Positions 29,045 through 34,432 of a stretch of 55,242 bases of DNA are shown piece by piece. Below the pieces are notes generated by a model. It ran no database searches, was not told where the DNA came from, and saw only the letters and a program-made list of their open reading frames with translations. Numbering within the stretch: position 1 is the first letter of the stretch; each line of letters opens with the position of its first letter. The stretch comes from Gemmatimonadota bacterium (GTDB lineage: Bacteria; Gemmatimonadota; Gemmatimonadetes; Longimicrobiales; Gaopeijiaceae): contig JAQBXY010000022.1 in assembly GCA_027623325.1 (NCBI GenBank), forward strand, positions 1-55,242. Direction: 5' to 3'. Both the position numbers and the translations under genes were made by a program.

Positions 29045-29125
29045 TCGGTCGGCGTACACGCCCGTAAGGGATTTCCCGGACTTTTCGTTGCGGGGAGGCT
29101 CCGGCTAGATTGGGCGCAGCACTTC

Positions 29126-29137
29126 GTGGATATCCAC
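29126..29137. promoter_or_regulatory. Perfect 12-base palindrome before ccmE, possible operator
   Basis: GTGGATATCCAC is a perfect dyad that ends 12 bases before the ccmE ATG. A possible -10 box TAGATT lies at 29106-29111, so the palindrome would sit just after the transcription start, where a repressor could block initiation. No protein that might bind it can be named. Confidence 0.35.
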
Positions 29138-29148
29138 TGGAGCGAGTG

Positions 29149-29580
29149 ATGAAGAAGAACGGACGATTCATGGTGGGCCTCGTCGGCGTCGCGACCGTCG
29201 TGACCTATCTGATCTGGACCGGCGTCAGCGAGACGATGGTCTACTACATGACGCCCAGCGAGCTGCTGTCGAAGGTCGAGGTCGACGCGTCCTTCCACGA
29301 AGTTGGTGTCAAGGTCGGCGCTCAGGCGATTCCGGGCACGTATTCAAGAGTGGAAGGTGAACTCCTGCATGTATTTACGGTCCGTGACCTCGTGGATGAG
29401 TCGAAGACATTCGTCGTGGAGTATCGTGACGCACTTCCCGACACGTTCACCGATGGAATCGAAGTCGTGATCGAAGGACATCTGCGCGCCGACGGTGTCT
29501 TCGAGGCCACGACGTTGCTGACCAAGTGCGGCAGTCGGTACGAGGCTTCTCCGGAAGATCTGGCGGGTAGCGCCGGGTGA
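29149..29580 (+). CDS. ccmE: CcmE heme chaperone, CxxxY variant
   Basis: CcmE receives heme from CcmABCD and passes it to CcmF for attachment to apocytochromes c, on the outer side of the inner membrane. The 143-residue product has an N-terminal anchor (8-24) and an OB-fold domain with VEVDASFHEVGVKVG and VIEGHLRADGVFEA. The usual heme-binding HxxxY is CGSRY here (Cys127, Tyr131). The ATG at 29149 follows GGAGCGAG; an upstream TTG at 29110 is less likely. The CxxxY form is known from Desulfovibrio and some archaea, whose Ccm systems lack CcmH. The stop overlaps ccmF (GTGA). Confidence 0.88.
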   Translation: MKKNGRFMVGLVGVATVVTYLIWTGVSETMVYYMTPSELLSKVEVDASFHEVGVKVGAQAIPGTYSRVEGELLHVFTVRDLVDESKTFVVEYRDALPDTFTDGIEVVIEGHLRADGVFEATTLLTKCGSRYEASPEDLAGSAG

Positions 29581-31643
29581 CAATTCTCGGGGAAGTCGCC
29601 CTCTGGATTTCCCTGCCGATCGCCCTCTGGGGCATGGTCGTAGGATACTGGGGGGGGCGTAGCCAGCGAGGGGATCTCGTGCTGAGCGCGGAACGGAGCA
29701 TCTATGCGACGTTCGGATTGCTCATCGTCGCGTCGCTCGGGGTCGTGGCTTCCTTCCTGGGAGACCGCTTCGAGTATTGGTATGTGGCCAGCTACTCGAA
29801 CGCTGAACTTGAGCTCTTCTACAAGATCACCGGGCTCTGGGCCGGCCAGCGTGGCTCGTTGCTCTTCTGGGCGCTCCTTCTGGCCCTCTTCGCGACCATC
29901 GCCGTCTTCACGAACCGGAAGAAGAACCGCGAGTTCATGCCGTACGTCGCCGGCGTGCTCCAAACCATCCTGGCCTTCTTCATCATCGTCCTCCTCTTCG
30001 CCGACGTGAATCCGTTCGAGCGACTCGACTTCACGCCGGCGAACGGTCAGGGGCTGAACCCCCAGCTCCAGAACTATTGGATGACGATCCACCCGCCGAC
30101 GCTGTATCTCGGCTTTACGGCCTTCTCGATTCCGTTCGCCTTTGCGGTGGCCTCTCTGCTCAGCGGCCGGCTCGATGCTCGCTGGATTCAACTGACGCGG
30201 CGGTGGATTCTGACGAGTTGGTTGTTCCTATCGGTCGGTATCGTCTTCGGCATGAGATGGGCCTACGAGGAATTGGGGTGGGGTGGCTACTGGTTCTGGG
30301 ATCCCGTCGAGAACGCTTCGTTGCTCCCCTGGCTGACGGCGACCGCGTTCTTGCACTCCATCCAGATTCAGGAAAACCGCGGCATGTTGAAGGTTTGGAA
30401 CATGTCGCTGGTGGTGATGACCTTCCTGCTGACGATCTTTGCGACCTTCCTGACTCGTTCGGGTCTCATCGAGTCGGTGCATTCCTTCGCGCAGGAAATC
30501 AAGATCGCGCTCATCTTCCTCGGCTTCATGGGGACGGTGATGGCGCTGTGTACCGTGTTGATCATATACCGACTCCCTCAGCTCCGGAGCGAGAACCAGA
30601 TCGAGTCGTTCTTCTCGCGCGAGTCTGCGTTTCTGTTCAACAATCTCATGCTGATCGGCGTGGCCTTCACGGTCATGTGGGGCACCATGTTCCCGTTGAT
30701 CTCGGAAGGGGTGACGGGACAGAAGATCAGCGTCGGGCCTCCGTTCTTCGAGATGGTCAATTTCCCGCTTGGCCTCATTCTGCTGGCGCTCGTCGGGATC
30801 GGACCGGTCATCGCGTGGCGTAGGGCCACCCGGAAGAACCTGCAGAAGAATTTTGCCACTCCGGTCGTTGTGGGGCTCGTCGCCGGCATCCTGCTCTGGA
30901 TTTCGGGGGCGCGGCATGAATTGTCGCTCGTCACCTTCAGCATTTCGGCCTTCGTCCTGACGGTTATCGGTACGGAGTTCTGGAAGGGGACGAGGACTCG
31001 GGCGCGGATCGAAGGCGAGGGCTACCCGCTGGCGTTCTATCACCTGATTACGCGAAATCGTCGCCGGTGGGGCGGCTACACCGTCCATGTTGGCTTCGTC
31101 ACGATGTGCATCGGATTCGCCGGCGCGGGCTACAATTCCGACGAGCGTTACAACGTGCAGCCCGGAGACCAGGTCGAGATCACGTCTCCGTTTGGACACA
31201 CGTACTCGCTGACCTACGAGGGACTGTCGGTCTCGCTCGGAAAGGGGCAGCGCAACCTCCTTTGGCAGGCGATCGCCACGGTGTCCGTCTCTCAGGACGG
31301 CGTGCCCAAGGGTGTACTCACGACGGAAAAGCGGCAGTACACGAACCGAGACAGTCAGCCGATGACCGAGGTGGGCATTCGCTCGATCGTCCGTGAAGAC
31401 CTCTATCTCATCCTTTCGGCGCTCAACGACATCAATGGCGCCGTGAATGCGGAGTCCGATGCACAGGGCATCGACCTTCAGGTGTTGATCAAGCCGTTGG
31501 TGGGCTTCATCTGGTTCGGCTGCTTCATCCTGGCGATCGGCACGGTGATCGCGCTGTGGCCCAGTGTGGATCGGAAGCGTATGGCCGCAGCGCCGCACAC
31601 GGGGGAACAACAGGAGCCCGCGCTCGCGGGGGCCGCCGACTGA
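29577..31643 (+). CDS. ccmF: CcmF heme lyase subunit of cytochrome c maturation
   Basis: The 688-residue polytopic membrane protein attaches heme to the CxxCH sites of apocytochromes. The heme-handling WWD domain is clear: GWGGYWFWDPVENASLLPWL at 234-252, flanked by conserved histidines in IHPP (172) and FLHS (260). About 14 hydrophobic segments and a large periplasmic part near the C-terminus (around residues 530-640) fit CcmF. The start is GTG overlapping the ccmE stop. The C-terminal tail after the last helix is short. Confidence 0.95.
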   Translation: MTILGEVALWISLPIALWGMVVGYWGGRSQRGDLVLSAERSIYATFGLLIVASLGVVASFLGDRFEYWYVASYSNAELELFYKITGLWAGQRGSLLFWALLLALFATIAVFTNRKKNREFMPYVAGVLQTILAFFIIVLLFADVNPFERLDFTPANGQGLNPQLQNYWMTIHPPTLYLGFTAFSIPFAFAVASLLSGRLDARWIQLTRRWILTSWLFLSVGIVFGMRWAYEELGWGGYWFWDPVENASLLPWLTATAFLHSIQIQENRGMLKVWNMSLVVMTFLLTIFATFLTRSGLIESVHSFAQEIKIALIFLGFMGTVMALCTVLIIYRLPQLRSENQIESFFSRESAFLFNNLMLIGVAFTVMWGTMFPLISEGVTGQKISVGPPFFEMVNFPLGLILLALVGIGPVIAWRRATRKNLQKNFATPVVVGLVAGILLWISGARHELSLVTFSISAFVLTVIGTEFWKGTRTRARIEGEGYPLAFYHLITRNRRRWGGYTVHVGFVTMCIGFAGAGYNSDERYNVQPGDQVEITSPFGHTYSLTYEGLSVSLGKGQRNLLWQAIATVSVSQDGVPKGVLTTEKRQYTNRDSQPMTEVGIRSIVREDLYLILSALNDINGAVNAESDAQGIDLQVLIKPLVGFIWFGCFILAIGTVIALWPSVDRKRMAAAPHTGEQQEPALAGAAD

Positions 31644-31659
31644 GGGGAGTGAATTCGTG

Positions 31660-32094
31660 ATGCTCATCCTCGGCGTGGTGCTGGTGGCCGGTGCCGTGGT
31701 CCTCTTCATCTTGCAGCCGTTGATCAAGGGGATTCACGCGTCACTCGAACGCGAGGATGACGAACTCACCGAGACCGAAGCACGGAAGCGGGTCGCGCTC
31801 CTCGCGCTCCGAGACGTCGAGTATGACTTCCTTGCCGGTAAGCTCGACGAGGAAGACTACCGGTCGATGAAGAGCCGGTTGACGGCGGAAGCGCTCGCTG
31901 CGCTCGAGGCCGACGAAGTCGCACGCGCCGGTGGCGGCGTGGTTGCCGCCGATGACATCGAAGCTGAGATCGCCAACCTGAGATATGGCCTACGATCGGG
32001 TTTCTCGTGCCCAGCGTGCGCGTTCACGAACGGGGAAGGGAGCCGCTTCTGCTCGGCGTGCGGGCTGTCGTTGGGCGAGCGCGTGGCGACTTGA
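31660..32094 (+). CDS. Membrane-anchored zinc-ribbon protein in the ccm cluster
   Basis: The 144-residue product has one N-terminal membrane helix (2-22). A charged helical segment follows (30-90), with ALRDVEYDFLAGKLDEEDYR, which resembles the N-terminal cytoplasmic-side motif of CcmI/CycH (short RD...GKLSEEEY pattern). The C-terminal zinc ribbon has Cys117/Cys120 and Cys131/Cys134. It sits exactly between ccmF and ccmA, where other organisms encode CcmG/CcmH/CcmI functions. GGGGAG lies ten bases before the ATG; a GTG one codon earlier is possible. The function is unknown: it may hold the Ccm complex together or deliver apocytochrome. The four Cys are spaced as a metal site, not as a thioredoxin CxxC. 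Confidence 0.7.
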   Translation: MLILGVVLVAGAVVLFILQPLIKGIHASLEREDDELTETEARKRVALLALRDVEYDFLAGKLDEEDYRSMKSRLTAEALAALEADEVARAGGGVVAADDIEAEIANLRYGLRSGFSCPACAFTNGEGSRFCSACGLSLGERVAT

Positions 32095-32807
32095 CCCGTC
32101 TCGTGCTCGAGGCAAAAGGACTCGCTCGCGAATACGGACCCGTGGTCGCGGTGGATGACGTGAATCTCTCGCTCGGGGAGGGGGAGTTTCTCACGGTCTT
32201 CGGTCCGAATGGCGCGGGCAAATCGTCGCTCCTCGGGATGCTCGGCGGCGCGATGCGTCCCACGAGGGGTCACGTGCTGATCCGAGGACAGCGGCTCGCC
32301 TATTCGGATGTGGAGTGGCGTCACCAGGTGGGGATCCTCTCGCATCGCGGCTTCTTATACGGCCAGCTCACGGTGGAGGAGAACCTCCGCTTCTACGGCC
32401 GCCTCTTCGGTCTCACAGATCTGGATCAGCGCATCCCGGAGAGGCTCGAACGTGTCGGTCTGGCAGACCGAATCCGCTTCCAGGTCCGGCAGCTGTCGCA
32501 TGGCATGCGTCAGCGACTCTCGTTGGCCCGAGCGCTCCTGCACGATCCGGACGTCATCCTCCTCGACGAACCGTACACCGGCCTCGATCCGTCGGCGGCG
32601 GGGGTGTTGCGCGGCGTGCTCGCCGGGTTGCGAGACGGGCGCCGTACGGTCGTGATGGTGACACACAACCTCAAGGAAGGCCTCGAGTTGGCGACGCGCG
32701 TGGCGATCCAGGTATCGGGTCGATTCGCGTGGGAGGGCACGCAGGCGGATGTGGGGGGCGAAGCCTTCGAACGCCACTACCATCGCGTCGTCGAGGGCCG
32801 GTCGTGA
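32091..32807 (+). CDS. ccmA: CcmA, ATP-binding subunit of the heme exporter complex
   Basis: The 238-residue ABC ATPase works with CcmB, CcmC and CcmD to release holo-CcmE. The Walker A FGPNGAGKSS is at about 41-50, the signature LSHGMRQR follows near 139 and the Walker B VILLDEP near 160. The start is taken as TTG at 32091, overlapping the upstream stop (TTGA); GTG at 32103 is the alternative. The stop overlaps the ccmB start (GTGA). Length matches the family. Confidence 0.9.
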   Translation: MTRLVLEAKGLAREYGPVVAVDDVNLSLGEGEFLTVFGPNGAGKSSLLGMLGGAMRPTRGHVLIRGQRLAYSDVEWRHQVGILSHRGFLYGQLTVEENLRFYGRLFGLTDLDQRIPERLERVGLADRIRFQVRQLSHGMRQRLSLARALLHDPDVILLDEPYTGLDPSAAGVLRGVLAGLRDGRRTVVMVTHNLKEGLELATRVAIQVSGRFAWEGTQADVGGEAFERHYHRVVEGRS

Positions 32808-33484
32808 GGACCTACATCGATCAGATCCGGGCCATCATCTGGAAGGATCTGGTCCTCGAATTGCGAACGCGAGAGCGTATCGCCGCGATGGGTGCGTTCG
32901 CGGTGCTGGCCGCGATCCTTTTCAACTTTTCGATCGACACGACCTCTACCCGACCCGAGGACGTGGCTGCGGGACTGATCTGGATGACGCTCGTGTTCGG
33001 TGGGCTGCTCGGTGTCGGGCGGACATTCTACCTGGAGTCGCAGGACAACGCGCTCCTCGGTTTGCTCACCTCTCCGGTCCCCAAAGACGCGATCTATCTC
33101 GCGAAGACGCTCGCGAACTTCGCGCTGTTGTTCATAGTTTCCGTGCTCGTACTCGGGGTGTTTGCGCTCTTCTTCGGGTTGGACCTGGGTGCGAATGTGG
33201 GGGGAATCATTCTCGTGCTCGGGCTCGGGTCGCTCGGCTTCGTCGCGCTCGGGACGCTCTTCGCGGCGATCTCCACGGGCACCACGATGGGAGAGACGTT
33301 GCTCCCGATTCTTGTCTTCCCTCTACTGGTACCGATGGTCATCTATGGAGTGACTTCGACGGGGCGCCTGATCGCGGGACGTCCGTTCGATGAAGTCGAA
33401 GGAAATGTCCGAATGCTCGGAGCGTTCGCCGTCGCCGCGCTCGCGGCGGGTGCTATGCTCTTCCGTTACGTCGTGGAGGACTGA
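32804..33484 (+). CDS. ccmB: CcmB, membrane subunit of the heme exporter complex
   Basis: The 226-residue product has six hydrophobic segments and the CcmB features WKDLVLELRTRERI near the N-terminus, SPVPKDAIYLAK in the middle and a LLPILVFPLLVPMVIYGV helix in the C-terminal half. It starts with GTG inside the ccmA stop and ends one base into the ccmC start (TGATG). It forms the channel-like part of the CcmAB transporter. Confidence 0.92.
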   Translation: MRTYIDQIRAIIWKDLVLELRTRERIAAMGAFAVLAAILFNFSIDTTSTRPEDVAAGLIWMTLVFGGLLGVGRTFYLESQDNALLGLLTSPVPKDAIYLAKTLANFALLFIVSVLVLGVFALFFGLDLGANVGGIILVLGLGSLGFVALGTLFAAISTGTTMGETLLPILVFPLLVPMVIYGVTSTGRLIAGRPFDEVEGNVRMLGAFAVAALAAGAMLFRYVVED

Positions 33485-34176
33485 TGGCGACCGCTGGAAT
33501 GAGGCGCGGAGGAACAGCGCTGACGCTCGTGGGGCTCGCGGGCCTGGTTTTCGTTTACTGGATGTCGTTCTTCTGGGTCTCGACCGAGATCAACCAGGGG
33601 GTCGTCCAGAGGATCTTCTACGTACACGTGCCCGCAGCATGGACATCGTTCATGGCCTTCGGATTCTCGGCTCTTGCGAGCGCGATGTACCTCTGGTTGC
33701 GCGACGATCGTTTGGATCGAGCGGCGTTGTGTGCTGCGGAGGGAGGGCTGGTGTTCGGGACCATCGTTCTGACCACAGGGCCGCTCTGGGGCAAGATCGC
33801 GTGGGGCACGTATTGGACGTGGGAGCCGCGGCTGACGCTTACTTTGCTCCTGTGGTTCATCTTCGTCGGCTATTTCATGGTCCGGAATTCGACGGAGGAC
33901 CCGGAGAAGGGTAAGCGGTTCGCGGCGGTCGTGGCCATCATCGGCGCGCTCGACATCCCGTTTATCCATATGAGTGTCATCTGGTTTCGTTCCCTCCATC
34001 CGGAGCCTGTGGTCGCGAAGCCCGACGGGCCGTCCCTTCCCGCCGACATGTTGACGACGCTGCTCACGAGTCTCGCTGTCTTCACGGTGATCTTCCTTGG
34101 ACTCTTCCTGTATCGGTACGCGCTCGAAGGACTCCGCGCCGAAGCCGACCTTCGTTCCCGTAGCACTGCAACGTGA
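33484..34176 (+). CDS. ccmC: CcmC, heme-handling protein that loads CcmE
   Basis: The 230-residue protein has six membrane helices, the conserved histidines His48 (IFYVHVPAAW) and His162 (DIPFIHMSVIWFR), and a WWD domain between them (WGKIAWGTYWTWEPRLT, 102-118). The usual WDARLT is WEPRLT here, a conservative change in the heme-binding loop. CcmC attaches heme to CcmE. The start ATG shares one base with the ccmB stop. Confidence 0.93.
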   Translation: MATAGMRRGGTALTLVGLAGLVFVYWMSFFWVSTEINQGVVQRIFYVHVPAAWTSFMAFGFSALASAMYLWLRDDRLDRAALCAAEGGLVFGTIVLTTGPLWGKIAWGTYWTWEPRLTLTLLLWFIFVGYFMVRNSTEDPEKGKRFAAVVAIIGALDIPFIHMSVIWFRSLHPEPVVAKPDGPSLPADMLTTLLTSLAVFTVIFLGLFLYRYALEGLRAEADLRSRSTAT

Positions 34177-34183
34177 TCCTGCC

Positions 34184-34432
34184 ATGATCCTCTTCAGAAA
34201 CCGCGTTTGGGTCGCCCGAACCGTACTGGCGTGTGCACTCTTTCTGCTCGCCACCGCCGCCGTAGGGGCTCAGGAGATCCAGGGGCTTCCTCGACCGACC
34301 GCGCTGGCTTCGCAGAGTCTCCGACCCTATTGGCACGTCTTCGCGGCCTATGCCATCGTGATCACGTTGATCGGGGGTTGGGCGATTTCGATCGGTCGTC
34401 GGCTTCGCGATCTCGAAGACCGACTTCGTTGA
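34184..34432 (+). CDS. CcmD-like small membrane protein
   Basis: The 82-residue product follows ccmC by seven bases. It has a signal-like hydrophobic start (11-29, ending VGAQ), a short loop, then a second membrane helix with a RPYWHVFAAYAIVITLIGGW pattern and a basic tail IGRRLRDLEDRLR. The tyrosine-aromatic helix followed by a basic helix is the CcmD pattern; CcmD is needed to release heme-loaded CcmE from CcmABC. Ordinary CcmD proteins lack the N-terminal signal segment, so this is an extended variant. The ATG at 34184 is chosen over the open frame from 34097, which overlaps ccmC. Confidence 0.65.
   Translation: MILFRNRVWVARTVLACALFLLATAAVGAQEIQGLPRPTALASQSLRPYWHVFAAYAIVITLIGGWAISIGRRLRDLEDRLR

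Follow-up and report, generated by a model that had tools for sequence, protein, structure and literature searches.

A small gene between ccmF and ccmA in a Gemmatimonadota genome encodes a membrane-anchored zinc-ribbon protein that is best read as a truncated CcmI. It keeps the membrane anchor and the helical hairpin of CcmI, and where CcmI has its second membrane helix and its TPR domain, it has the ribbon instead, which is probably cytoplasmic. We consider it fairly probable that this protein is the reduced CcmI of System I*, most likely a structural component of the heme-ligation complex, with the ribbon plausibly docking to CcmA/CcmB. The window, by which we mean the whole stretch of 55,242 nucleotides that was analyzed, has the gene order ccmE, ccmF, zinc-ribbon gene, ccmA, ccmB, ccmC, and a ccmD-like gene, and the gaps around the ribbon gene are short. 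The features of the cluster are as follows.

29110 to 29580 (start probably 29146), + strand: ccmE of the Cys type (CGSRY); PF03100, E = 2.8e-21, and motif.
29577 to 31643, + strand: ccmF; PF16327, E = 2.3e-56, and PF01578, E = 2.5e-39.
31657 to 32094, + strand: CcmI-like zinc-ribbon protein; 145 aa from GTG 31657 or 144 aa from ATG 31660.
31663 to 31728, + strand: single N-terminal membrane helix of that protein, residues 2 to 23; AlphaFold2, pLDDT of 95 to 97 across residues 1 to 20.
31771 to 31995, + strand: CcmI-type helical hairpin, residues 38 to 112, with the turn GKLDEEDY; TIGR03142, profile match, and AlphaFold2.
31999 to 32073, + strand: predicted zinc ribbon CxxC-x10-CxxC, residues 114 to 138; DZR, E = 0.0014 (under the cut-off), and structural matches.
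32091 to 32807, + strand: ccmA; PF00005, E = 1.8e-31, and TIGR01189, E = 8.6e-38.
32804 to 33484, + strand: ccmB; PF03379, E = 1e-33.
33484 to 34176, + strand: ccmC; PF01578, E = 6.8e-28, and TIGR01191, E = 8.4e-45.
34184 to 34432, + strand: ccmD-like small membrane protein; TIGR04391 (CcmD_alt_fam), E = 5.4e-7, over the cut-off.

The ccmA gene starts at either TTG 32091, which overlaps the stop of the zinc-ribbon gene, or GTG 32103. Neither ccmG nor ccmH was found in the ccm cluster of the window. The genome holds several redoxin-family genes.

The open reading frame from 31660 to 32094 on the + strand translates into 144 residues. Homologs start one residue earlier, and GTG 31657 is therefore the probable start. 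Measured against close relatives, the gene has a dN/dS of about 0.17 to 0.21, which indicates purifying selection. We searched a sample of 200 Gemmatimonadota genomes at a homolog threshold of E ≤ 0.001. CcmF was found in 192 of them and CcmH in 187. A homolog of the zinc-ribbon protein was found in 162, although the weakest of these matches may be ribbon-only, as two scored matches of family f2 cover just the ribbon end. Given the homologs in this many genomes and the dN/dS value, the frame from 31657 to 32094 is not a chance one. The zinc-ribbon gene is real and conserved. The initial annotation, made from the sequence alone, had described an anchored 144-residue protein between ccmF and ccmA, and the reading frame, the N-terminal membrane helix, and the gene order all confirm that description. 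Close homologs that share the gene order of the window come from Gemmatimonadota MAGs. In a scan of genome contigs, the matches listed from outside the phylum were zinc-ribbon fragments only, and plasmids and viral contigs gave no homolog of the protein.

We modeled the protein with AlphaFold2 from an alignment of 40 sequences (mean pLDDT, 86). The model has a membrane helix at residues 2 to 23, two helices (residues 38 to 58 and 64 to 112) that form a hairpin, and a ribbon at residues 114 to 138. The C-terminal CxxC-x10-CxxC metal site that had been annotated is present with exact spacing (C117-x2-C120-x10-C131-x2-C134), and its ligand cysteines are kept in 38 to 40 of the 40 homologs: positions 131 and 134 are Cys in all 40, and positions 117 and 120 are Cys in 38, with a His at 120 in two. 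A second zinc ribbon is present in 11 of the 40 homologs. In a structure search, the ribbon superposed on solved NZF-type zinc fingers at 0.5 to 0.8 Å over about 24 residues. Pfam zinc-ribbon matches were under their cut-offs for the window protein and over the cut-off for the homolog L055. The predicted ribbon probably binds zinc. It shares with the zinc-ribbon and DZR domains (PF12773, PF13240, and PF13248) the CxxC-x10-CxxC knuckle pair and its occurrence as a single or double ribbon; unlike them, it is joined to a membrane module of CcmI. When the PDB was searched by sequence and by fold, the window protein gave matches to the zinc ribbon or to unrelated helices only.

The helical zinc-ribbon model, together with the lack of any thioredoxin-family match, agrees with the earlier statement that a thioredoxin fold is absent, and it rules out a thioredoxin-like or CcmG role. 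A redox CxxC pair is unlikely because of the Cys-to-His changes at a ligand position in the homologs. The window protein has no match to PF03918 (CcmH), and the CcmH of this genome is a different gene.

CcmI, also called CycH, is equivalent to the C-terminal part of Escherichia coli CcmH. Its binding partners are apocytochrome c and the CcmF/CcmH complex, and it is the TPR domain that takes the apocytochrome. The CcmI model TIGR03142 matched all 40 aligned homologs of the zinc-ribbon protein (best E = 5.1e-8). A profile of the homologs also matched a profile of three CcmI proteins over residues 37 to 79 (hhalign; E = 1.3e-9), and the negative control, the same profile against a CcmH profile, gave an E of 0.15. 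These matches support the CcmI-like charged helix that had been noted from the sequence. Against the window protein alone, TIGR03142 gave an E of 0.0034, which is under the curated cut-off and counts against the reading as a reduced CcmI. The hairpin presumably also resembles generic SHOCT-type hairpins, and this resemblance and the missing TPR domain likewise count against that reading. A search of plasmids for CcmI sequences with which to enlarge the profile found none.

Beyond this module, true CcmI has a further membrane helix and then TPR repeats, whereas neither a second membrane helix nor a periplasmic TPR domain was seen in the 40 homologs or in the AlphaFold2 model. The window genome has no TPR CcmI over the cut-off. 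Therefore, the zinc-ribbon protein carries the N-terminal module of CcmI, for which the homology is established, as is the prediction of a single membrane helix, and it has a different C terminus. In Rhodobacter capsulatus and Pseudomonas aeruginosa, CcmI has two membrane helices connected by a cytoplasmic linker, and then the periplasmic TPR domain (PMC3884852). The Gemmatimonadota protein resembles CcmI/CycH in its N-terminal membrane helix, its charged helical hairpin, and, in some families, its place directly after ccmH. It differs in having no second membrane helix, no periplasmic TPR or Ig-like domain, and a zinc-ribbon end. The charge distribution bears on its orientation: Lys or Arg occurs in or before the membrane helix in none of the 40 homologs and within the next 15 residues in 39 of them. 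From the positive-inside rule and the precedent of CcmI, we predict that the hairpin and the ribbon lie on the cytoplasmic side.

We then scored the position of the gene among the matches listed, leaving unscored those genomes for which no CcmF or CcmH was listed. The ccmF gene adjoins the zinc-ribbon gene on the same strand in 91 of the 105 scorable matches listed. In the window's family, the ribbon gene is directly downstream of ccmF in all 38 scorable members among the matches listed. In other families it is usually directly downstream of ccmH (at least 62 genomes; median gap, 94 bp). Two genomes of family f9 (L085 and L087), which are not among the matches to the zinc-ribbon protein, have a full TPR CcmI directly after ccmH. 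Therefore, the place after ccmH is the ccmI position. In families f4 to f6 the gene that follows is not ccmA, and the protein is still kept.

The initial annotation had put the protein in the place of CcmG/H/I, in a system with no CcmH. The window genome does have one PF03918 protein (E = 2.4e-11), encoded on a separate contig next to a gamma-glutamyltransferase-like gene, and sister families carry ccmH directly upstream of the ribbon gene. These two observations rule out an absence of CcmH, and they mean that the ribbon protein does not stand in for CcmG, CcmH, and CcmI together; we read it as a reduced CcmI at the place of CcmI. The unlinked CcmH (L049:8516-9070, − strand) has the motif CSCGCGLDVHSC. 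Its predicted structure had a pLDDT of 57 and was left out. Five invariant cysteines are common to the unlinked CcmH and to the in-cluster variant CcmH of the sister families. Wherever CcmH of the window's family could be scored among the matches listed, its gene lies apart from the ccm genes. In most sampled members of this family (L068, L099, L100 to L104, and L106 to L108), the unlinked CcmH-like protein has instead the pattern SP[FY]CPGxMLExCP, which differs in its cysteines from the five-cysteine CcmH of the window genome.

The CcmE of the window has the sequence CGSRY, in agreement with the CxxxY type first assigned to the system. We compared CcmE in two sets of loci, one chosen for the ribbon protein and the other for canonical CcmH. 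CcmE was of the Cys type at all 32 ribbon-bearing loci where it could be read (31 CxxxY and one CxxxF) and HxxxY at all 12 readable canonical-CcmH loci, but the counts are not independent, since the 36 ribbon-associated CcmFs form a single clade (support, 0.999) in a CcmF tree, and the association may thus rest on one or a few events. The CcmFs of the HxxxY type form another clade (support, 1.0). The canonical-CcmH loci have no adjacent ribbon protein, and ccmG is present. One genome (G010) holds both kinds of locus, each with its own type of CcmE. The ribbon protein is a conserved feature of the CxxxY-CcmE system across Gemmatimonadota. Co-occurrence with a Cys-type CcmE had been anticipated together with the absence of ccmH; the former was found and the latter was not, as ccmH is either unlinked or directly upstream.

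The CxxxY-CcmE variant is System I* (Allen 2006 and Goddard 2010, as reviewed in PMC3601427). Many bacteria with System I* lack CcmH, though not all do, and CcmI is helpful there but not essential (PMC3601427). The System I* operon of Desulfovibrio has been expressed in an E. coli K-12 Δccm strain (PMC3601427). The Gemmatimonadota system shares with it a Cys-type CcmE, CcmABC, CcmF, a CcmD-like protein, and a cluster without ccmG. It differs in having CGSRY or CASRY and not the commoner CPSKY, and in adding a variant CcmH with five invariant cysteines and the zinc-ribbon mini-CcmI. The archaeal CcmABCEF machinery of Methanosarcina acetivorans also has a CxxxY CcmE, and it is reported to be without CcmD, CcmH, and CcmI (PMC9084895). 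In contrast, Gemmatimonadota keep a CcmD-like protein, the variant CcmH, and a reduced CcmI.

We suggest the following arrangement for a reduced CcmI of System I*. The protein retains the N-terminal module of CcmI, its membrane helix and a helical hairpin that would lie in the cytoplasm. It has lost both the TPR domain of the periplasm and the second membrane helix, and it ends in a zinc ribbon that would face the cytoplasm too. The membrane helix would pack on CcmF and on the unlinked variant CcmH; we infer that the protein belongs to the CcmF/H complex. The hairpin and the ribbon may act as a cytoplasmic docking or stabilizing element, plausibly for CcmA/CcmB, because the ccmA and ccmB genes directly follow in the window's family. 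Docking to CcmAB is a possible part of this arrangement and its weakest step, because ccmA is not the neighboring gene in families f4 to f6. The ribbon protein could possibly link CcmF to CcmABC, as the sequence had first suggested. A related alternative, which we regard as rather unlikely, is that, in Gemmatimonadota with System I*, the zinc-ribbon CcmI is a cytoplasm-facing adaptor that physically joins the heme lyase CcmF/H to the exporter CcmAB, and that apocytochrome capture has been dropped or belongs to the five-cysteine CcmH. To our knowledge, coupling of the heme lyase to the heme exporter is not a known role of CcmI.

The protein might instead be a general membrane-anchored zinc-ribbon protein with its own job that is carried along in the ccm cluster. 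Zinc ribbons of this type are very common, and orphan homologs occur in family f7 and in genome G199. These orphans show that the gene can be kept where no CcmF adjoins it, and they weaken a strict link to CcmF. Yet ccmF adjoins on the same strand in 91 of the 105 scorable matches listed, the anchor and hairpin match the CcmI model in 40 of 40 homologs, and the gene tracks the CxxxY CcmE even inside the two-system genome G010. We therefore find such a passenger doubtful. There is little to recommend the original proposal of a new component that recruits apocytochrome in a system without CcmH, when taken to mean a periplasm-facing protein that acts through its zinc ribbon. It fits the conserved place beside ccmF, and some apocytochrome handling could be missing in a genome with no TPR CcmI over the cut-off. 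However, the genome does encode a CcmH, sister families have ccmH immediately upstream of the ribbon gene, the TPR domain is missing, and the charge bias and the topology of CcmI (PMC3884852) predict a cytoplasmic ribbon, which makes apocytochrome recruitment unlikely. A cytoplasmic sensor or regulator, whose ribbon would read the zinc or redox state and tune heme export by CcmA/CcmB, is also quite improbable: the ribbon is predicted to be cytoplasmic and ccmA directly follows in the window's family, but the protein is kept in families f4 to f6, where ccmA is not next, and the Cys-to-His changes at a ligand position speak against a redox switch.

For the reduced CcmI that we prefer, the membrane and cytoplasmic module of CcmI would be kept without its TPR domain, and a zinc ribbon added, in most of Gemmatimonadota. 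Since the module is kept apart from the TPR domain, its function becomes directly testable. System I* is commonly described as a pared-down machinery, and here it has an apparently undescribed part added. We found no paper that brings CcmI and a zinc ribbon together; the search was confined to open-access literature, which makes this negative result weak evidence.

The orphan ribbon homologs of family f7 (L090, L091, and L093:6303-6674) adjoin recA or occupy a dtd-glpK site. In the f7 genomes sampled, an HxxxY ccm system is encoded at another place, away from these homologs. In G199 (L062:6973-7527) the ribbon protein is kept and no CcmF_C match was found; upstream of the ribbon gene is a permease-like open reading frame that appears to run into a C-terminal fragment of CcmH. 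Genomes G010, G016, G062, and G076 have two ccmF loci each, apparently one per type. In G146, a proteobacterial-like ccmF-ccmH-ccmI cluster lies on a short contig (L069; G146:C15), and a CcmF with CcmH and the ribbon protein is found elsewhere in the same genome; the cluster on the short contig probably reflects contamination or transfer. The L092 cluster (family f8), from a sister CxxxY lineage, has a CPSKY CcmE, ccmG, and a canonical-type ccmH. Its ccmF is followed by a CcmI-like module (L092:8515-8859) that lacks the zinc ribbon and has a Lys-rich tail at its end, and this tail suggests that the C terminus is cytoplasmic, in line with the topology predicted for the ribbon protein.
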